Source of the DNA: Rhodoligotrophos appendicifer
Lineage (GTDB): Bacteria; Pseudomonadota; Alphaproteobacteria; Rhizobiales; Im1
DNA: 64,000 bases
Reading direction: 5' to 3'
NCBI RefSeq assembly: GCF_007474605.1
Contig: NZ_VHKL01000008.1
Span: 62,001 to 126,000, forward strand
Positions within the stretch are counted from its first letter, which is position 1; every line of letters starts with the position of its first letter. This document shows, piece by piece, positions 6,507 to 62,597 of the stretch. The notes beneath the pieces are model-generated. The model made no database searches. It saw nothing but the letters and a program-made list of their open reading frames with translations, and had not been told where the DNA came from. A program made the position numbers and the translations under genes.

Positions 6507-7073
6507 TCAAAAACCGATTCGGAAGCCTGCCCGCAGAGAATGATCCTTAAAGTCCGCGCCGGTGACCATGATATCGCGGAAGCGATAGCCGATATCGAGG
6601 TCAAGATTGTCCAAGACAGCGAAGCTGAAGCCCGCATGAAGCGCTAAGGCGAACCCATCATCTTCTGCAGATCCCGCGTCGAGCCACCCCCAGCCAACAC
6701 CCAGTCCCACATACGGGGTTACTTCTTCGATGATCGGAACCCCGACATAGGCGTTGCCTAAGACGGTCCAGACATTCATGTCGTCCGGAAGACCGATGTC
6801 ATAGGATCCAGAGTAGTCGCCGGTCAGATCCGCCCTGAAAATCTCCGTGAAATTGTAGCCGACGCCGACCCCCACCGTGAGATTGTCGTCATTTTCAAGG
6901 AACTTCGTGTCCATAAAGGACCAGCCGATGTCACCGCGAAGATAAAATCCCGGGTCATAAACCGGCAGCGGCGGAGCCACCGGCGGCTCGATGGGAACAA
7001 GATCGGCCGCCGAGGCCGTAGCGATGGCGGCATATAGGACTGCCGCGGCCCCGAGAAACCGTAAGTACTTCAT
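6507..7073 (-). CDS. outer-membrane beta-barrel protein, Omp25/31-like (first of four)
   Basis: 188 residues. A Sec signal peptide (MKYLRFLGAAAVLY...ATASA) is cut before ADL, the mature part has alternating amphipathic strands, YLRGDIGWSF, VGYRF-type turns and a C-terminal SLRAGFRIGF with terminal Phe, the Bam insertion signature. This is the Omp25/Omp31/RopB-type small porin-like family that anchors the outer membrane in Rhizobiales. GGAGGAGAGG lies upstream of the ATG at 7073. It is a single-gene unit with its own exact CtrA-type box at 7140-7154 and its own terminator. Confidence 0.88.
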   Translation of the reverse strand: MKYLRFLGAAAVLYAAIATASAADLVPIEPPVAPPLPVYDPGFYLRGDIGWSFMDTKFLENDDNLTVGVGVGYNFTEIFRADLTGDYSGSYDIGLPDDMNVWTVLGNAYVGVPIIEEVTPYVGLGVGWGWLDAGSAEDDGFALALHAGFSFAVLDNLDLDIGYRFRDIMVTGADFKDHSLRAGFRIGF

Positions 7074-7139
7074 GTTTGCCTCTCCTCCGGTCAGGCGGTA
7101 GCCCGTCATTTCCGTGTCGATGGCACAACCCTAACACAC

Positions 7140-7154
7140 TTAAAAATTGCTTAA
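7140..7154 (-). promoter_or_regulatory. CtrA-type binding box (exact TTAA-N7-TTAA)
   Basis: Reads TTAAAAATTGCTTAA, 67 bases upstream of the barrel gene start at 7073. This is the full-site consensus of the cell-cycle regulator CtrA in alphaproteobacteria. Binding is inferred. Confidence 0.6.
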
Positions 7155-7222
7155 ATAGTGAAACATATCCTTTAGGTTGAAAGGAGAGCTCTGTGACTGG
7201 GATGCTACAAGCCTGGAGCAAA

Positions 7223-7250
7223 GAAAAAGGCGGCATCCGTGATGCCGCCT
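7223..7250 (-). terminator. intrinsic terminator for the barrel gene at 7275-7859
   Basis: Perfect nine-pair stem GGCGGCATC/GATGCCGCC with a three-base loop, followed on the minus strand by TTTTTC. Strong terminator. Confidence 0.9.
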
Positions 7251-7274
7251 CTCATTAGACCCGGTCTTTTTCTG

Positions 7275-7859
7275 TCAGAAGCCGACCCGCAAGCCCGCCC
7301 TGACGGAGTGATCATAGAAATTCGGCCCATCAATAAAGCCATCGCGGAAGCGATAGCCTACGTCCAGGGTCATATTCTCACTGACCTTGAAGCCGACACC
7401 CGCCATGGCGGCGACGGTGAATCCGTCCTCGCTATAGCCATGCGTGCCATCATACCAGCCATAGCCGGCGCCCGCTCCGAGATAGGGCACCACGGTATCG
7501 CTGATGGGAATATCGACATAGGCGTTGCCGAGCAGCGTCCAAGCATCCAGCTTGTTTCCGCCGACATTGTAGTTTCCGGAATAGTCCGCCGTCACATCGC
7601 CACGGAAATTGTTGCTGAACCGATAGCCCACACCAGCGCCTCCGGTGAAGGCATTGTCGTTCTTCCGACCGATGTCCGAATCGAGAAAGGACCAACCGAT
7701 GTCGCCACGGAGATACCAGCCGGTCTCATCCACATAGACCGTCTCGGGAACCACTTGCGGCGGAATATAAGGCTGGGCCAGATCTGCGGCCAGGACATGA
7801 CCGGAGGTGCCAGCCAGAGCGGCCAGTCCGAGCATGGCTGCTGTCAGATTGTACTTCAC
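7275..7859 (-). CDS. outer-membrane beta-barrel protein, Omp25/31-like (second of four)
   Basis: 194 residues. Signal peptide (MKYNLTAAMLGLAALAG...VLA) before ADLAQP; the mature barrel repeats the family turns WYLRGDIGWSFLDSD, GAGVGYRFSNNFRGD and ends SVRAGLRVGF. It is the closest paralogue of the gene at 6507. The start is GTG at 7859 because AAGGAGGG lies six bases upstream; the frame continues to 7976 but the extra residues have no signal-peptide character. An exact CtrA-type box lies at 8019-8033 and inverted repeats occupy the presumed leader (7903-7958). Confidence 0.88.
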   Translation of the reverse strand: MKYNLTAAMLGLAALAGTSGHVLAADLAQPYIPPQVVPETVYVDETGWYLRGDIGWSFLDSDIGRKNDNAFTGGAGVGYRFSNNFRGDVTADYSGNYNVGGNKLDAWTLLGNAYVDIPISDTVVPYLGAGAGYGWYDGTHGYSEDGFTVAAMAGVGFKVSENMTLDVGYRFRDGFIDGPNFYDHSVRAGLRVGF

Positions 7860-7902
7860 GATTTCCCTCCTTGCGTACGCACGCACTCTACTCACAGGAT
7901 CG

Positions 7903-7958
7903 GGAACGTCCCATTTGAGGCAACGTTCCATCTCCCATTCGTTAGACTGCTCAAATGA
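7903..7958 (-). promoter_or_regulatory. overlapping inverted repeats in the leader of the second barrel gene
   Basis: GGAACGT (7903-7909) pairs with ACGTTCC (7923-7929), and CATTTGAG (7912-7919) pairs with CTCAAATG (7951-7958). The two pairings overlap and are mutually exclusive, which would suit a switchable mRNA leader or two nested protein sites. No known riboswitch is recognised. Confidence 0.3.
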
Positions 7959-8018
7959 GGCTAAAATCCGAAGCAATCTGTCCTACGATGTCGCAGCTCG
8001 GCTTTGTTGCCCGCACGG

Positions 8019-8033
8019 TTAACCGGGCCTTAA
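8019..8033 (-). promoter_or_regulatory. CtrA-type binding box (exact TTAA-N7-TTAA)
   Basis: Reads TTAACCGGGCCTTAA, 160 bases upstream of the barrel gene start at 7859 and within the gap before the gene at 8064. Binding is inferred from the consensus. Confidence 0.55.
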
Positions 8034-8063
8034 TCAGCTGACCTCCCCGAAGCCGGCCCGTGC

Positions 8064-8744
8064 TCAAAAGGTGTAGCGGAGCCCGGCGCGAAGGGAATGA
8101 TCATTGAAGTCCCACGGCCCCTCCACCAGGATCTGGCGATACCGGTAGCCCAGATCAAAGCCGAACTGCTCAGTGACACTGATCCCAACACCAGCCATGG
8201 CCGCCCAGGTGAAGCCGCCGTCGGTCTTCATCTGAGCCTCCAGGGGATGGGGGCCTTTGAAGTTCTGGGTTTCGTGGGAAAAGACAGAATAGCCGGCCCC
8301 CATGCCGAGGTAAGGGCTCAGCACGGCGGTGACCGGAACCTCGACATAGGCATTGCCCATGACCGTAATTGGTTGAAAGCTGTAGCGGTTGTAGTGACCC
8401 GTCGACAGTTTCGGCAGATGTTTCCTCTGCATGTTGTAGCCACCGCCATATTCGGCTGTGGCGTCCATTCGGAAGTTACGGTTGACACGATAGCCGACAC
8501 CGCCTCCGAAGATGAAATTGTCGATGTCCGATTCGAGGTTCGGCTTGATCGCCACGTGGGCCCATGACCCACCGAAATCACCGCGGACGTAAAAGCCACT
8601 CTGCACCGGCTCCGATTCTGTGTCCGTCCAAGCGGGCTCCAAAGAGCTTGAGACGGAGCGCGGAGGCAGATCGGCGGCGGCGGCACCCGTGACGGCTGAC
8701 GCAGCGGCAAGGCATGCCGCAAAAAGAGAATTGTGAACTGACAA
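8064..8744 (-). CDS. outer-membrane beta-barrel protein, Omp25/31-like (third of four)
   Basis: 226 residues. Signal peptide ending SAVTGAAAA before DLPPRS, then barrel strands with FYVRGDFGGSWAHV, GGGVGYRVNRNFRMDATAEYGGGY and C-terminal SLRAGLRYTF. It is more divergent than the first two and has longer loops. The start is uncertain: a TTG at 8744 with GGGAG seven bases upstream is preferred; a TTG at 8789 has no site and would add basic residues before the signal. Unlike its three neighbours I find no TTAA-N7-TTAA box upstream. Confidence 0.82.
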   Translation of the reverse strand: MSVHNSLFAACLAAASAVTGAAAADLPPRSVSSSLEPAWTDTESEPVQSGFYVRGDFGGSWAHVAIKPNLESDIDNFIFGGGVGYRVNRNFRMDATAEYGGGYNMQRKHLPKLSTGHYNRYSFQPITVMGNAYVEVPVTAVLSPYLGMGAGYSVFSHETQNFKGPHPLEAQMKTDGGFTWAAMAGVGISVTEQFGFDLGYRYRQILVEGPWDFNDHSLRAGLRYTF

Positions 8745-8844
8745 AATATGGCTCCCGGATCTGCGCCTTTCCGGAAGGAAAGAACGCAAGGCTAATCCGG
8801 GATGCTAAGAGCGGAAACGTGATCGGCTCACGACGTCAATGCGC

Positions 8845-8930
8845 CGGCCTCCAGACCGATTGAGGCCGCATCGAGACGATCGTTCCGGAGCAGCACAATC
8901 CCGACGCGCTCGTTGTCAGGACTGTGCTGC
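8845..8930 (-). other. two tandem stem-loops between barrel genes three and four
   Basis: CGGCCTC (8845-8851) pairs with GAGGCCG (8862-8868), and GCAGCACAATCC (8890-8901) pairs with GGACTGTGCTGC (8919-8930) with one mismatch. They follow the stop of the fourth barrel gene on the minus strand. No T-run follows either, so they may protect the 3' end of the mRNA or act with Rho; their role is not established. Confidence 0.35.
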
Positions 8931-8944
8931 AATTCCTGCTTTGA

Positions 8945-9631
8945 TCAGTTGAAGCTATAGCGCAGACCGATGCGCGCTTCGTGGGAGACCACATTGTCCA
9001 CGTGGAATGGGTCGGGTCCGCCGGACTTTGCATCGCCCAGGTCCAAATAGCGATAGCCGACATCCAAGGCGATGTTTTCGGTGACGTCGAAGACCAGGCC
9101 CGCCTGGACGTTCCAAGCAAACTGAGTGTTCGACCCTGAGCTCGAAAGTGGCGGCCTCTTCACGTCAGAGATGTCGTGGAAGGCCACACCGACACCACCG
9201 CCAATGTAAGGCGTCACGAAATCCGTGAACATATCGAAGTCGACATAGCCATTGGCAAAGATGGTGGCCGTCGAAAGCTCCGCATCGAGACTGTTGTACT
9301 TGTCCTTCAAGCCGGTGCCGAAGTGATAGCCGCCGGTTATATCGGCACGGAACATGGAGGTGAATTGGCAGCCAACGCCACCCTCGATGAAGCCTCCATC
9401 CTTCAGCTTCTCTCCATAAGCCTTGCTCTTGCCGTACTTGCCGTGATTTTTGTAGACATTCGGGCGTTCGTGAAAGCTGCCTCCGCCATCGATCCGGAGA
9501 TAGAGGCAGCTGGCATCAACAACGGGTTCCGGAACCGGTGCGGGGAGCAAGTCGGCGGCCCAAGAAAGACCGGCGCTCGAGACCAACACCACGCCTGCAC
9601 CCAAAACGGCCCCTGTCACCTTACCTAACAT
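8945..9631 (-). CDS. outer-membrane beta-barrel protein, Omp25/31-like (fourth of four)
   Basis: 228 residues. Signal peptide MLGKVTGAVLGAGVVLVSSA...SWA before ADLLPAP; mature barrel with GGFIEGGVGCQFTSMFRADI, NIALDVGYRYLDLGD and C-terminal ARIGLRYSFN, where the final residue is Asn rather than the usual Phe. The start at 9631 is chosen for GAGGGGA upstream. The most divergent member of the cluster, with a Lys-rich insertion near residue 60. An exact CtrA-type box lies about 150 bases upstream at 9782-9796. Confidence 0.86.
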   Translation of the reverse strand: MLGKVTGAVLGAGVVLVSSAGLSWAADLLPAPVPEPVVDASCLYLRIDGGGSFHERPNVYKNHGKYGKSKAYGEKLKDGGFIEGGVGCQFTSMFRADITGGYHFGTGLKDKYNSLDAELSTATIFANGYVDFDMFTDFVTPYIGGGVGVAFHDISDVKRPPLSSSGSNTQFAWNVQAGLVFDVTENIALDVGYRYLDLGDAKSGGPDPFHVDNVVSHEARIGLRYSFN

Positions 9632-9781
9632 ACGCTGTCCCCTCGCTCGCCAGACCCTGATTCGGTTGCATGAGCCCAGCGCGCCAAGGTCCCGCCGTGG
9701 CGCGTAAGCCAACTCGATGCATCGCCAATTGAGCGCCCCCGCTCGATTGATCACTTGTATAAGTTTTATTAACCATAAAGA

Positions 9782-9796
9782 TTAATAATGCCTTAA
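9782..9796 (-). promoter_or_regulatory. CtrA-type binding box (exact TTAA-N7-TTAA)
   Basis: Reads TTAATAATGCCTTAA and is followed by CC as in many CtrA sites; a further TTAACC half site lies at 9769. It is upstream of the fourth barrel gene. Confidence 0.6.
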
Positions 9797-9843: not shown

Positions 9844-9872
9844 AAAAAGGGCCCGGTCGAGTGCCCGGGCCC
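9844..9872 (-). terminator. intrinsic terminator after glmM
   Basis: GC-rich stem GGGCCCGG/CCGGGCCC with a short loop, followed on the minus strand by TTTTT, 29 bases past the glmM stop. Confidence 0.9.
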
Positions 9873-9900
9873 TGCTCAGACTGTCGGTGATTGACTGGAT

Positions 9901-11256
9901 TCAGGCAGCTGCGGCAGTCGCAGCCGTCTGCTTCACGACACTGGTAATCTCATCGACCACGGCGCGCACGATCGTCTCGTCGTCACCCTCCGCCATAACC
10001 CGAATGACGGGTTCCGTCCCCGAGGCGCGAATGACGACGCGGCCGCTGGACCCCAGCCGCTCCGTGCCCGCATCGATCGCGGCCTTTACAACGGAGGCTT
10101 CCAGCGGATTGCCATTGGAGTAACGCACGCTCTTCAGGAGTTGCGGCACCTTCTGGAAGCGAGCGCAGACCTCACTCACGGGACGGCCGCTCGCCACGAC
10201 CACGCCGAGCACTTGAAGGGCCGCGATCAGTCCATCGCCCGTCGTGGTGAAATCATTGAGCACGATGTGTCCCGATTGCTCGCCACCAATGTTAAAGCCG
10301 TCGCGGCGCATGCACTCCACCACATAGCGGTCGCCGACCTTCGTGCGAATGAGATCGAGGCCGATCCCGTTCAGATAGCGCTCGAGGCCAAGATTCGACA
10401 TGACGGTCGCCACTACGCCGGAGCCGCGCAACCTGCCGGCGCTGGACCAGCTCTCGGCGATCAGCGCCAAGACCTGGTCGCCATCGATGATCTGGCCCTT
10501 CTCATCGACGAGGATCACCCGGTCGGCATCGCCATCCAATGCGATTCCGACATCCGCCCGCAGCTCCCTTACCCGTTCGCAAAGCCGCTCGGGTGCTGTC
10601 GAGCCACATTTGTCGTTGACGTTCAAGCCGTCCGGCTCAACCCCGAGGGGAAACACTTCAGCACCCAGCTCCCAGAGGGCAGCGGGCGCGACCTTGTAGG
10701 CTGCACCATTGGCGCAGTCGACAACGACCCGGATCCCCTCGAGGCGGAGATCCTTAGGGAAGGTGCGCTTGGCGAATTCGATGTAGCGCGCCTGAGCATC
10801 CTCGATGCGCTTGGCACGGCCCACCTTGTCGGATGCCGCCTTCTCCCCCACCCCCTCTTCGATCATGCGCTCGATTTCGAGTTCCTGCTCATCCGAGAGC
10901 TTGTAGCCATCGGGTCCGAACAACTTGATGCCGTTGTCGGCGAAGGGGTTGTGGGAGGCGGAGATCATAACGCCGAGATCGGCGCGCAGCGAACGGGTGA
11001 GCATGGCGACGGCCGGGGTGGGCAACGGACCGAACTGGAAGACGTTCATCCCCACAGAGAGGAAGCCTGCGACCAGCGCCGATTCGATCATGTAGCCGGA
11101 CAGCCGAGTGTCCTTGCCGATTACGACCCGGTGGCTGTTCTCGTCGCGGGTAAAGAGACGACCTGCCGCCATGCCGACTTTCAGCGCCGTCTCTGCATCC
11201 ATCGGCCATGCGTTGGCTTGACCTCTTATCCCGTCCGTCCCGAAATATTTGCGCAT
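9901..11256 (-). CDS. glmM: phosphoglucosamine mutase
   Basis: 451 residues, normal for GlmM. It converts glucosamine-6-phosphate to glucosamine-1-phosphate for UDP-GlcNAc, and so feeds peptidoglycan and lipopolysaccharide. Visible motifs: [11 protein letters not shown] at the start, [13 protein letters not shown] with the phosphorylated Ser near residue 100, the metal loop DGDADR, and [14 protein letters not shown] near the C terminus. The start at 11256 fits the family; the open frame upstream to 11295 overlaps folP. It follows folP by 25 bases, and ftsH-folP-glmM is a common rhizobial and enterobacterial order. Confidence 0.97.
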
Positions 11257-11281
11257 TCTGCCCCCCGTGCCTGATCCTGTT

Positions 11282-12331
11282 CTATCGCGGGTCATTCAGT
11301 CTAAACCAAACCGCGAGCGCCTGCACCGTTTCGCGCACGTCGTGAACCCGAACCATCTGGATCCCTTGCTGCATCCCCGCCATGGCCGCGGAGACGGAGC
11401 CCGATATACGGTGTCGCGCCTCCTTCTCCCCGGTGATGGTTCCGATGAAGCCTTTGCGCGACGCGCCGAGAAGCAAGGGGACGCCCAAGCCGTGAAAAAG
11501 GCTCAGGCCAGCCATCAGCTGCATATTGTGCAGGTGCGTCTTGCCAAAACCTATACCGGGATCAGCAATAATGGTGCCACGGTTAATGCCGGCCTCTTCG
11601 GCCCGCGCGATATGTCCGGCCAGGCTGTCATAGACATCGAGGAGGACGTGCTCGTAAGTGGGATCGACCTGCATGGTCTCCGGCGGCCCCTGACTGTGCA
11701 TGAGGATCACCGGAACCTGGAGGCGCGCGACCGCATCGGGAGAAGCTGCATCATAAGTGAGGGCGGAGACGTCGTTCACGATGGCTGCACCGGCGCTCAC
11801 AGCCTCGATCATCATGGAGGATTTCCGCGTATCAATCGAGATCGGCACGCCCGTGTCGCGCAGAGCTTCGATCACGGGGATCACCCGCTGCCGCTCCTCA
11901 TCGAGATCCGTGCCCTGCGAAAAGGGCCGGGTCGATTCTCCTCCGATGTCGAGGATGTCGGCGCCGGCCGCGGCGAGAGCCCTGCCCTGCCGAATCGCCT
12001 CGGCACTGTCGGCAAACTCGCCCCCATCGGAGAAACTGTCGGGCGTCACGTTGACGATGCCCATGACAAGCGGCCGCGAAAAATCCAGACCTGCCACAGG
12101 CGCGCGCGGGGCCATAAGGGCCTGCAACCGCTCTTTCAAAATCGCGTCCGACGTTGATGTCAGCCCGCCAATCTCGATGACCTTGTTCTTGGCTTCGTCG
12201 CGCGCCAAGATTTGGGCCAGACTAAAGGCTGCTGGTCCCCCCGCGAGGGGCACCGCCACTCCGCTCGCGATGGCGGCCCGAGCTTCGGCGCCGTGCAGAA
12301 TGCCCATGGGCCTCAGATAGACTTCGGCCAA
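11282..12331 (-). CDS. folP: dihydropteroate synthase with N-terminal extension
   Basis: 349 residues. It condenses dihydropterin pyrophosphate with p-aminobenzoate in folate synthesis. Family motifs are [15 protein letters not shown] near residue 90, [39 protein letters not shown] and [11 protein letters not shown]. Before the first motif there are about 70 residues more than in E. coli FolP, including [17 protein letters not shown]; similar extensions are, from memory, usual in Rhizobiales and their role is unknown. Between ftsH (45-base gap) and glmM. Confidence 0.95.
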
Positions 12332-12376: not shown

Positions 12377-14320
12377 TCACCTCGTCCGATGTGCAGCGCC
12401 TCCAGCCTGCGGCTGAGGCTTCATATCGCCGGTGGGCGCGTCTCCACGACGGCCGGAGCCGGCGGAGGGGACGGCGGATTTCGGAGGCAAGGGATCCTCC
12501 TTGATGGTGGTGTCTCTTACCGGCGGCCTGCCATTGAGCAGATTTTTGATCTCATCTCCGGACAAGGTCTCGTATTCGAGCAAGCCATTCGCCACGATAT
12601 GCAGCTGATCGATGTTCTTTTCGAGAATGTCCTTCGCCAGCTTGTGGCCTTCATCCACCAGCTTGAAGATCTCCGCATCGACGATCCGCTGGGTCTCCTC
12701 AGACAGGTTCTGCGTGCGGGCAACGGAATGGCCGAGGAACACCTCTTCCTCGTTGTCGCCATAGGCCAAAGGTCCGAGCTTCTCGCTCATTCCATACTGA
12801 GTGACCATGGCACGGGCCATCTGGGTTGCCATCTTGATGTCGGAGGATGCGCCGGACGTGACCTTCTCGTGGCCGAAGATCAGCTCCTCCGCCGCGCGAC
12901 CGCCCATGGCGACGCCCAGATCGGCCTTGAACTTCGCACGCGTCACCGACAGGTGATCCCGCTCGGGAAGACGCATGACCATGCCCAAGGCGCGGCCACG
13001 GGGAATGATGGTCGCCTTGTGGACGGGGTCGGAGGCCGGCAGGTTCATGGCCACGAGCGCGTGACCGCCCTCGTGATAAGCCGTCAGCTTCTTCTCCTCG
13101 TCGCTCATCATCATCGAGCGGCGCTCGGCACCCATGAGCACCTTGTCCTTGGCGTCCTCGAATTCGAGCTGAGTGACCAGCCGCTTGCCGCGACGCGCGG
13201 CCATGAGGGCTGCCTCATTCACCAGATTGGCAAGATCGGCTCCCGAGAAGCCGGGGGTTCCGCGGGCCAGCGTCTTGGCATCCACGTCGGGAGCCAAAGG
13301 CACGTTGCGCATATGAACCTTGATGATCTTCTCACGGCCGACAATGTCAGGACGCGGCACAACGATCTGGCGGTCGAAGCGACCGGGACGCAGCAAAGCG
13401 GGATCCAGCACGTCAGGCCGGTTGGTGGCGGCGACCAGGATCACGCCCTCATTGGCCTCGAAACCATCCATCTCGACCAGGAGCTGGTTCAGGGTCTGCT
13501 CGCGCTCATCATTGCCACCGCCGAGGCCTGCACCACGATGCCGGCCGACGGCATCGATTTCGTCGATGAAGATGATGCAGGGGGCATTCTTCTTCGCCTG
13601 CTCGAACATGTCCCGCACGCGGCTCGCGCCAACGCCCACGAACATTTCGACGAAGTCGGAGCCGGAGATGGTGAAGAAGGGAACATTCGCTTCGCCTGCA
13701 ATCGCGCGGGCCAGCAACGTCTTACCCGTCCCCGGAGGGCCCACCAGCAGCGCACCCTTGGGGATCCGGCCCCCGAGCCGCTGGAACTTGTGCGGGTCCT
13801 TCAGGAACTCGACGATCTCCTCGAGATCCTCCTTCGCCTCGTCAACGCCCGCGACATCGTCAAAGGTGATGCGGCCATGGCGTTCGGTCAGCAGCTTCGC
13901 CTTGGATTTCCCGAAACCCATGGCCTTGCCGCCGCCAGACTGCATCTGGCGCATGAAGAACACCCAGACCGCGATCATCAGCAGGATCGGGAACCAGGAA
14001 ATGAACACGTTCAAAAGGAAACTGTCGTCCGCAGGGGCTTTGACGCTGATGCCGACATTGCGCTCGCGCAATTCCTTGATCAGGTTCGGATCATTGGGAG
14101 CCTGAGTGGAAAAACTGCGACCGTCCGTATAGGTCCCGGTGAGCGTTTCGCCAGCGATCTGGACGTCGCGAACCTTGCCCGCTTCCACGTCGTTGAGCAG
14201 CTGCGAATAGGTGACATCGTTGCTGGAAGCCCGCTGGCCAGGGCTCTGGAAGAGCTGGAACAGAGCGAACAGCAGGAGGGCAATGATGACCCAAACAGCA
14301 AAGTTTCGAAAATTGTTCAC
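12377..14320 (-). CDS. ftsH: ATP-dependent zinc metalloprotease FtsH
   Basis: 647 residues, inner-membrane AAA+ protease that removes misassembled membrane proteins and regulatory proteins. Two N-terminal membrane segments (about residues 5-25 and 103-125) flank a periplasmic domain; then Walker A GPPGTGKT, Walker [12 protein letters not shown], the second region of homology with RPGRFDRQI, and the zinc motif HEGGH near residue 417. The C terminus is a Pro/Gly-rich tail. A CTTGGC-N17-CTATGT promoter lies at 14393-14421. Probably leads the ftsH-folP-glmM transcript. Confidence 0.98.
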
Positions 14321-60131: not shown

Positions 60132-60226
60132 CAGTCATTTTGTTTCACGGGAGCGGAGGTTCGGGCGCTTGCTCAGGCAGTTATCCGAGACTAGCGTCTG
60201 CCGCAATCAGGGTACCGGAGGGTGAT

Positions 60227-62281
60227 GTGAAGAAGGCTGGCGTGAGGCTTGGAGTGCTGGCGTGTACTATGCTCGTGGCATTGCCCATAGCGGAAGCTTC
60301 CGCAGAAATCACCGGACGGAGCCAAAACTTTACCGCCCGGAACTTTTTCGAGCGCCTGTTCAACATTGATACGCCGCCGCCCCAGGACAACTTTTTCAGC
60401 GAGCCGGGCGCCCAGGGGCCTGCCCAGCGTTACCGCCAGCAACAGCAGCGGACACGAAACGTGGTCCAGCCGCGGCGTGAAGACAATGTCGATCCGGAGG
60501 GTGATCCCGAACCTGCCGTCCGCGTCGCGCCCGACATCGCGTTCTATGTTCCCGCGCCGCTGGTTCCCCTGACCGACCAGGCCCTCACGGGTGACGACAT
60601 TACGGACCCCGTATCAGCGGCAATCCTAGCCGGACTGCGGGACGGTGTGGCCCCTGCCCTGCGTGTTCCCGCTGATGCGAAGCCCGCCATCCTCGCCTTC
60701 TACAAGGATCGCGACTTCATACCGGCCTGGACGGGGGTCTCCGGTCTGAACGGTCGGGCCGCCACCATGCTCAAGACGCTCGCTGCGGCGGATGACGAGG
60801 GTCTGCAGGCGCAGCAGTATTTGCCGCCGTCCCTCACCGGTTTCACCGACACCGGCGCAAATCTTAAGAATGATCCGAAGGCGCTAGCCTCGCTCGATCT
60901 GCAGATGACCGTCATGGCGCTCAAATATGCCCGGGATGCCATGAGCGGGCGGGTGGACCCCAACAAGATCACGCGCTTCAATGATCTCACTCCACCGAAG
61001 TTGGAGCCTGCAGAGGCCCTGGCCCAGCTCAATGCCACACGGGACCCGGGCGCCTATCTCGCTTCGCTCAACCCCACCAGCATAGGGTTCACCGCGCTTA
61101 AGAATGAGCTGAAGCGGCTTCGGGAAGCGAACGCGACGGCCGAAGCATTGCCGCCGATCGGCTCGGGCCCAGCCCTCAAACTGGGAATGCGGGATGAACG
61201 TGTCACTGTGCTCCGGGCCCATCTCTCGTCACTGGGTTTGATTGGCCCTTCGCGAGCAGGAGCGCTTGCGACGGGCGCCGCACCCAGTCGGGACATCATG
61301 CTGGTCGCCGATCTGTCGCAGACGGATCCGGACCCAAGCGAATCCGACAGCGCGATCGAGGCGATCCCCGTATCGGCACAGCTTACGGGCTCCGTCAAAG
61401 TGGCCAGCGTCGGCGATGCCGGCACAATCGATTCCACTCTGTACGACCAAAAGGTCGTGGATGCGGTCAGGGCGTTCCAGAGGCAGCAGGGGCTGTCCGC
61501 CGACGGCATCGCGGGGGTGCGCACTGTTGCCGCCTTCGAGCAGGAAAACGACGCCGACAAGATCGAGAAGATCCTCCTGAACATGGAACGCGCCCGGTGG
61601 ATGCCAAGGGATCTCGGCAAACGCTATGTGCTCGTCAACCAACCGGCCTTCGAACTGAATCTGATCGAAGACAATGTCTCGAGTTTCCAGACTCGGGTCG
61701 TCGTCGGTACCAAGGTGAACCAGACGCCCGCTTTCAACGACGTCATGGAGACGATCGAATTCAATCCCTATTGGTACGTCCCGCGTTCCATCATCAATAA
61801 GGAGATGCTGCCGAAGCAGCGTCGCGATCCCAGCTACCTCTCCCGCAATGGCTATGAGGTGACCCGAAATGGCGGCCAGATCAGCGTCCGCCAGCCCCCG
61901 GGAAAATCCAATGCCTTGGGCGAGATGAAGTTCCTGTTTCCCAACAGCCACGCGGTTTATCTGCACGACACACCTTCCAAAAGCTTGTTTGGCCGCGACG
62001 CGCGGGCCTTCAGCCATGGTTGTGTCCGCGTCCAGAATCCTCGTGATCTGGCGGAAGCGATTTTGGAGCGTGAAGGCTGGAGCCGTGAGCGGATTGAACG
62101 CGCCATCGCCGGCGGCTCCAATAATGGTGTTCGGCTGAAGCAGAAAGTCGAAGTCCATCTCGCCTATTTGACCGCATGGCCCGGAAATGATGGGGCCATT
62201 CACTACCATGACGACGTCTACGGTAGAGACGCCAAGCTCTCACAGGCTTTGGCCGGGGGCGAAAGAGTGGCCCTCCAATAG
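60227..62281 (+). CDS. L,D-transpeptidase (YkuD domain, YcbB-like)
   Basis: 684 residues, periplasmic. Signal segment KKAGVRLGVLACTMLVALPIAEASA; then a YcbB-type scaffold (ILAFYKDRDFIPAWTG), a peptidoglycan-binding domain split by a Ser/Asp-rich insert (VVDAVRAFQRQQGLSADGIAG, about residues 415-440), and a YkuD catalytic domain ending in FSHGCVRVQNP with Cys599. It makes 3-3 cross-links, the dominant type in Rhizobiales. The GTG at 60227 with GGAGGGTGAT in front is the start; the frame from 60140 lacks a site. 95 bases after the regulator. Confidence 0.94.
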   Translation: MKKAGVRLGVLACTMLVALPIAEASAEITGRSQNFTARNFFERLFNIDTPPPQDNFFSEPGAQGPAQRYRQQQQRTRNVVQPRREDNVDPEGDPEPAVRVAPDIAFYVPAPLVPLTDQALTGDDITDPVSAAILAGLRDGVAPALRVPADAKPAILAFYKDRDFIPAWTGVSGLNGRAATMLKTLAAADDEGLQAQQYLPPSLTGFTDTGANLKNDPKALASLDLQMTVMALKYARDAMSGRVDPNKITRFNDLTPPKLEPAEALAQLNATRDPGAYLASLNPTSIGFTALKNELKRLREANATAEALPPIGSGPALKLGMRDERVTVLRAHLSSLGLIGPSRAGALATGAAPSRDIMLVADLSQTDPDPSESDSAIEAIPVSAQLTGSVKVASVGDAGTIDSTLYDQKVVDAVRAFQRQQGLSADGIAGVRTVAAFEQENDADKIEKILLNMERARWMPRDLGKRYVLVNQPAFELNLIEDNVSSFQTRVVVGTKVNQTPAFNDVMETIEFNPYWYVPRSIINKEMLPKQRRDPSYLSRNGYEVTRNGGQISVRQPPGKSNALGEMKFLFPNSHAVYLHDTPSKSLFGRDARAFSHGCVRVQNPRDLAEAILEREGWSRERIERAIAGGSNNGVRLKQKVEVHLAYLTAWPGNDGAIHYHDDVYGRDAKLSQALAGGERVALQ

Positions 62282-62597
62282 AGGTGTATAGGAGCAGGCG
62301 GTGCGACAAAGCGGCACCGCCTCCCAACCTCTCCGTCTCCGGACGGATCTTTCCAAAAAACTACGAATCCTCCCTGTTTCATTAACGCCCGCTTAATCCT
62401 AAACGCGCACAGTGCGAGTGTGTAGGGTCGCCTCGCGTAATGGTGGCTGGAGGTTTTCTGACGTCTACCTCTTGTGCTCCGGATCGTCGGCGGATAATGA
62501 TTGGCTATTGAGGAGCGGGGACGAAAGCCTCAAGCGGGGTTCCCGAGTAACTGTAGTGGCGTTTAACGCGTCTTCTGAATCAAGACGGAAGAGCTCA
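62282..62597. other. intergenic region before the DUF882 gene
   Basis: 316 bases, no gene supported. The notable content is the exact CtrA-type box at 62382-62396, listed separately. Confidence 0.5.
62382..62396 (+). promoter_or_regulatory. CtrA-type binding box (exact TTAA-N7-TTAA)
   Basis: Reads TTAACGCCCGCTTAA, followed by TCCTAAACG. It is about 200 bases upstream of the DUF882 gene start. Binding is inferred from the consensus. Confidence 0.55.

Follow-up and report, generated by a model that had tools for sequence, protein, structure and literature searches.

A conserved CtrA-type box in front of the leading outer-membrane barrel gene of a Hyphomicrobiales glmM-serC locus, described from Rhodoligotrophos appendicifer

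The control of outer-membrane barrels by the regulator CtrA is already known from Brucella abortus, where CtrA binds upstream of omp25 (Francis 2017 as cited in PMC10538546). In addition, a review describes the binding of CtrA to promoters of outer-membrane genes (PMC10787603), the direct CtrA regulon of Sinorhizobium meliloti takes in cell-envelope components, the promoters induced by CtrA in Caulobacter have the site mostly at -35 (PMC11264516), and predicted CtrA sites are found upstream of L,D-transpeptidase genes in Agrobacterium tumefaciens (PMC11527210). Here we describe a further case, a cluster of four tandem barrel genes (A to D) in a stretch of 64,000 nucleotides of Rhodoligotrophos appendicifer (contig NZ_VHKL01000008.1, positions 62,001 to 126,000; the whole stretch is called the window below), in which three exact copies of the motif TTAA-N7-TTAA (boxes A, B, and D) precede three of the four genes.

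The locus resembles the omp25 case in that a CtrA-type site stands ahead of the gene of a small outer-membrane barrel in the same order. However, the bound region of omp25 is given as -389 to -337, whereas here the box is mostly found 60-220 nt before the start codon and belongs to a glmM-barrel-serC locus. Gene D is likened to omp25 at the level of its upstream site and barrel type. The promoters activated by CtrA in Caulobacter contain the same TTAA-N7-TTAA at -35, and in the named loci analysed below a conserved -10-like element begins 12 nt downstream of the box; they differ in that an extra TTAA pair with N9 spacing is present in about half of the loci here, and in that the promoter is here a predicted one. 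A. tumefaciens, from a related family, also has envelope genes with CtrA-type motifs, and the fourth box of the window adjoins an L,D-transpeptidase gene, but the Agrobacterium sites are described with atypical spacing whereas we find exact N7 spacing and barrel genes. A CtrA-controlled glmM-barrel-serC locus is not mentioned in the titles and abstract openings listed by the literature searches, which were confined to open-licence papers and displayed a part of the hits; supplementary tables (e.g. Table S15 of PMC3616915) may list the genes.

Based on its conservation, we propose that the window contains a CtrA-controlled barrel locus in which a conserved box probably drives the leading barrel gene and in which boxes at the other barrels are gained and lost between lineages. 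The leading barrel is gene D (8945..9631, minus strand), and its box D (9782..9796, minus strand), about 150 nt upstream of the D start, is kept across the order. The three nearest relatives, two of the same genus (G001, G002) and one of the same family (G003), all have a counterpart of box D before their D gene, at projected offsets of 26-55 bp. The locus was matched in 57 of 61 genomes including its own, and the box was examined in the best 29 of the 56 relatives with a match. An exact box was present in all nine larger stretches of the best-matching relatives (the three nearest included), which contained no AATT-N7-AATT, and 24 of the 26 other loci (L036-L061) had it as well. These 26 come from as many genomes, six of which are also among the nine, so that the two sets add up to 27 of 29 when one locus is counted per genome. 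The 24 box-bearing loci of L036-L061 span 23 families besides the window's own, thus 24 families with it. Box D is also one of only three of the 21 boxes of the genome for which each of the three nearest relatives has a counterpart no more than 100 bp away, together with those in the hemE/ppsR gap and at a response-regulator locus.

A larger sample of named loci comprised 80 loci, the best among 428 candidates that had been confirmed, and is therefore restricted to closest relatives; at least two of them (L115, L116) overlap the relatives' sample. After dropping L170 and L180 because of short upstream DNA, 69 of the remaining 78 had an exact N7 box within 300 bp. Thinning by protein similarity left 48 loci, 42 with box, compared with a mean of 0.475 and a maximum of 3 in dinucleotide-preserving shuffles, and the control motifs were found once (N6), never (N8), and once (AATT-N7-AATT). 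The density of boxes in the named loci was 0.0031 per base upstream versus 3.6e-5 elsewhere in the same loci. When leading barrels were assigned by barrel profile (L170, L177, and L180 left out), 69 of 77 carried the box. Box D is thus a deeply conserved core site of the locus, as judged from these sequences.

Many of the sites are more elaborate than a single pair. Among the 78 named loci, TTAA pairs with N9 spacing were found at 40, and the N9 pair frequently has one half-site in common with the N7 pair, so that an array of three half-sites results. This is also the case at 9769-9796 of the window, where TTAACCAT-N5-TTAA (9769..9785, plus strand), an N9 pair, completes the array of box D. 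The same layout, TTAACCAT-N5-TTAA, is present in the promoter of ctrA itself in all four genomes (R. appendicifer and its three nearest relatives). The order of the N7 and N9 pairs relative to the gene varies by lineage, with both orientations occurring, and some second barrels (L138, L172, and L186 were looked at) share the array order of gene D. In Pseudovibrio (L136, L145) the leading barrel has an N9 pair without exact N7 box. Alignment of the 42 thinned loci on the box revealed a conserved A at position 27 (90%) and T at position 31 (86%), belonging to a -10-like element whose first base lies 12 nt past the box, and the box would therefore sit at -35. CtrA would bind the TTAA-N7-TTAA box at the promoter of the leading barrel (D in the window), joined in about half of the loci by a third half-site nine bases away. 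Because the box lies ahead of the conserved -10-like element and the sites of CtrA-induced Caulobacter promoters are mostly at -35, CtrA would most likely activate the leading barrel from about the -35 region whenever it is active. The recurrence of the box at the same place in most relatives examined suggests that the production of the leading barrel is timed to the division cycle.

The genome encodes CtrA (85% identical to a CtrA query sequence; 424.5 bits against the NCBIfam CtrA model with a cut-off of 350). The first-pass annotation had listed four exact boxes, and an exact pattern search of the 64-kb window returned the same four (7140-7154, 8019-8033, 9782-9796, and 62382-62396), the first three, as it had said, in gaps upstream of barrel genes (A, B, and D of the minus-strand cluster); shuffles give an expectation of 0.02, although they understate AT-rich gaps. 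In the complete genome (5.59 Mb) the motif occurs 21 times and its backward control AATT-N7-AATT 25 times. Because the control is commoner than the motif, motif frequency alone is no argument for over-representation. The spacing is distinctive: exact N7 makes up 21 of the 100 TTAA pairs with N2-14 spacing in this genome, compared with 25 of 359 for the AATT control (binomial 2.1e-5). The corresponding shares in the three nearest genomes are 18 of 73, 15 of 56, and 12 of 39, and pooling all four genomes gives 66/268, with a binomial probability of about 2e-17 under even spacing. Three of the 21 sites falling within 2,642 bp was reached in 19 of 20,000 uniform simulations, which were designed after the cluster had been seen and ignore intergenic bias. 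Outside the window there are 17 boxes, at least one of which (L022) sits within a gene-like frame of 312 aa. The genome-wide count proposed in the annotation thus gave no excess over the control. In R. appendicifer and its three nearest relatives, 7 of 43 barrel genes had a box within 400 bp, comprising all four leading barrels but just 3 of the 39 others (48 rows, five dropped for want of a fetched stretch; the starts were set by rough scoring and are in part doubtful). A generic rule that all barrels carry boxes is rejected, with 36/43 lacking one within this distance.

A number of observations weigh against the proposed control, concerning either the leading barrels, the later ones, or the literature. 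Exact boxes are absent at the leading barrels of L057 and L061 and of eight of the 77 named loci (L136, L145, L147, L162, L176, L182, L190, and L191). Pairs with N2 (10/78) and N13 (9/78) spacing are likewise present, with the remaining N3-14 spacings at 0-2 each. By eye, the DNA following box D of the window has the conserved A at 27 and lacks the T at 31, and that following box A has neither. None of the three nearest relatives has a counterpart of box A or box B. Their second and third barrels carry no box, nor does the second barrel of L067, and the exact box is missing at 17 of the 29 later barrels of named loci. Finally, outer membrane, porin, and omp are words that the S. meliloti paper on CtrA does not use in its main text.

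Concerning boxes A and B, there is close to an even chance that they are just AT-rich promoter DNA matching the motif fortuitously, with box D alone being real. For all 21 boxes, the surrounding DNA was set against that of the 45 boxes found in the three nearest relatives, and a box within 100 bp was accepted as a counterpart. Whereas 11 of the 21 genome boxes have a counterpart in at least one of the three, A and B have none, and they are thus lineage-specific at best. At box A (7140..7154, minus strand, about 67 nt before gene A), one half-site remains in G002 and neither in G001, the second half-site being absent from both. By eye it stands directly after a CACTAT/TACTAT element common to G001 and G002, and it may belong to the core promoter. 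Box B (8019..8033, minus strand, about 160 nt before gene B) lies some 30 bp past the end of gene C (31 bp beyond the stop at 8064). A hairpin reading of box B was rejected (folding z-score 0.17). However, two extra boxes within 2.7 kb of D would arise by chance with a probability of only 3.6e-5 at the genome rate, or 3.7e-4 assuming 850 bp of gap and ten times that rate, both calculated post hoc. In addition, boxes precede later barrels in other lineages too (12 of 29 in the named loci; shuffle mean 0.065, largest 1). The best reading is that boxes A and B are either lineage-specific, being real sites of recent origin at loci where the boxes of further barrels are gained and lost, or fortuitous. 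If CtrA bound box A, its closeness to the presumed core promoter would make repression more likely there. The comparison with orthologous clusters suggested in the first-pass annotation hence sustains box D and not A and B. Its notion of a cell-cycle-timed set of barrels divides in the same way: CtrA control of gene D is well supported at the sequence level by the N7 spacing, the conserved box, the encoded CtrA, and boxes of the same genome at published CtrA genes, and a timing of the whole set is weaker because A and B have no counterparts.

A reading in which the conserved array is chiefly the binding site of a different regulator, such as MucR or another OmpR-type regulator, or is shared by that regulator and CtrA, is quite improbable. 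The binding protein cannot be named from sequence alone, the N9 spacing differs from the classical CtrA spacing, and CtrA sites are reported to overlap MucR sites at the Brucella bmaC promoter (PMC12548446). The specific N7 spacing and the TTAACCAT N9 pair in the promoter of ctrA itself point to CtrA instead, and so do other boxes of the genome, at rpoD, ftsE, and ftsK. The neighbours of the remaining boxes also include the hemE/ppsR gap and a gene for a DipM-like endopeptidase (FtsE, RpoD, and HemE score above, FtsK and DipM below the curated model cut-offs). In PMC3616915, rpoD and ftsE are cited as bound by CtrA in Brucella and have CtrA motifs in S. meliloti, where ftsK has a motif too, and the hemE promoter is CtrA-controlled in Caulobacter (PMC11264516). 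That the conservation reflects nothing but a shared AT-rich promoter composition without any regulator is hard to believe. The 2-kb blocks holding the cluster have GC contents of 0.569 and 0.585 and are somewhat below most of the window; yet 42 of 48 loci have the box where shuffles average 0.475, and most other spacings and the reversed motif are nearly absent from the named loci, which speaks against this rival.

The cluster is best read as this genome's version of a locus conserved in Hyphomicrobiales, ftsH-glmM-barrel(s)-serC. All four genes pass the Pfam model OMP_b-brl (PF13505; 53.8-69.9 bits, cut-off 28.7), and the earlier description as Omp25/31-like is backed at this level only. NCBIfam names for the barrels were rejected since the matches, the strongest to the adhesin Adr, are far below the curated cut-offs. 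The genes lie on the minus strand, and starts were chosen by eye from signal peptide and ribosome-binding site: A (6507..7073, start at 7073), B (7275..7859, GTG at 7859), C (8064..8744, TTG at 8744), and D (ATG at 9631). The product of D has an ADL motif after the signal peptide and a proline-rich stretch, and its predicted model is of low confidence to about residue 38 and then forms an eight-stranded barrel (mean pLDDT 78.6), with NspA and OmpA-type barrels as best fold matches. As the annotation had noted, gene C has no box; the gap before it contains no TTAA at all, C has no counterpart in the corresponding cluster of G001, G002, or G003, and C would be outside the direct control of such a box. 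The different expression stage that the annotation suggested for C gained no support. Upstream of D are glmM (9901..11295, minus strand) and, further upstream, ftsH (12377-14320), both named after their equivalents in the annotated locus of S. meliloti, whose gene order is tilS, ftsH, hypothetical, glmM, porin family, porin family, serC, serA. There, an exact box precedes each of the two porin genes, and none was found within 300 bp for glmM, serC, and serA. Of the 89 fetched stretches, 73 contain glmM and 55 serC, some ending too early to show either gene. Terminator-like hairpins follow glmM (9848..9873, minus strand, with box D between hairpin and gene D) and, with a T run, gene B (7225..7253, minus strand), two of seven sites found by a scan for which shuffles give 3.8. 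Because of these hairpins D and A are probably each transcribed from their own promoter. A scan for the sigma-70 consensus was uninformative, its single weak match in the cluster being within gene B.

In the hemE/ppsR gap, which is the place of the replication origin in Caulobacter, the exact box (around 3055 of L013, G000:C1:597754) has counterparts in all three nearest relatives at offsets of -3, 1, and 65. In G001, four exact boxes, two of them identical, lie within 11 kb (G001:C1:3095255-3106011), the first near an OmpR-type response regulator gene. The fourth exact box of the window (62382..62396, plus strand) is located between an L,D-transpeptidase-like gene (60140-62281; 240.1 bits, cut-off 425) and a gene for a MepK-like L,D-endopeptidase (62412 to the window end; domain 175.2 bits, cut-off 185). 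Both congeners (G001 and G002) have a counterpart of it no more than 2 bp away, and the nearest box of G003 is 462 bp off.

Tethered barrels are covalently linked to peptidoglycan at a mature Ala-Asp/Glu N-terminus. The motif A[DE] is found within residues 16-40 in 77 of the 80 named relatives, which is no more than compatible with such tethering. Since the fourth box precedes the gene of the MepK-like endopeptidase and is next to the L,D-transpeptidase gene, it could be imagined that CtrA times the anchoring of the outer membrane across the Hyphomicrobiales, with the barrels of the locus tethered by L,D-transpeptidases and CtrA controlling both the barrels and the enzymes that make or cut the links. 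We consider this unlikely as it stands, but if it were true the attachment of the envelope would follow polar growth and division. The analysis points to one outer-membrane gene, at a syntenic place, with a CtrA-type box that most of the examined families (23 in addition to that of the window) have retained and that is conserved with greater consistency than the majority of this genome's boxes. With exact boxes at both tandem barrels, S. meliloti is a model symbiont in which the cell-cycle control of outer-membrane composition would be testable.

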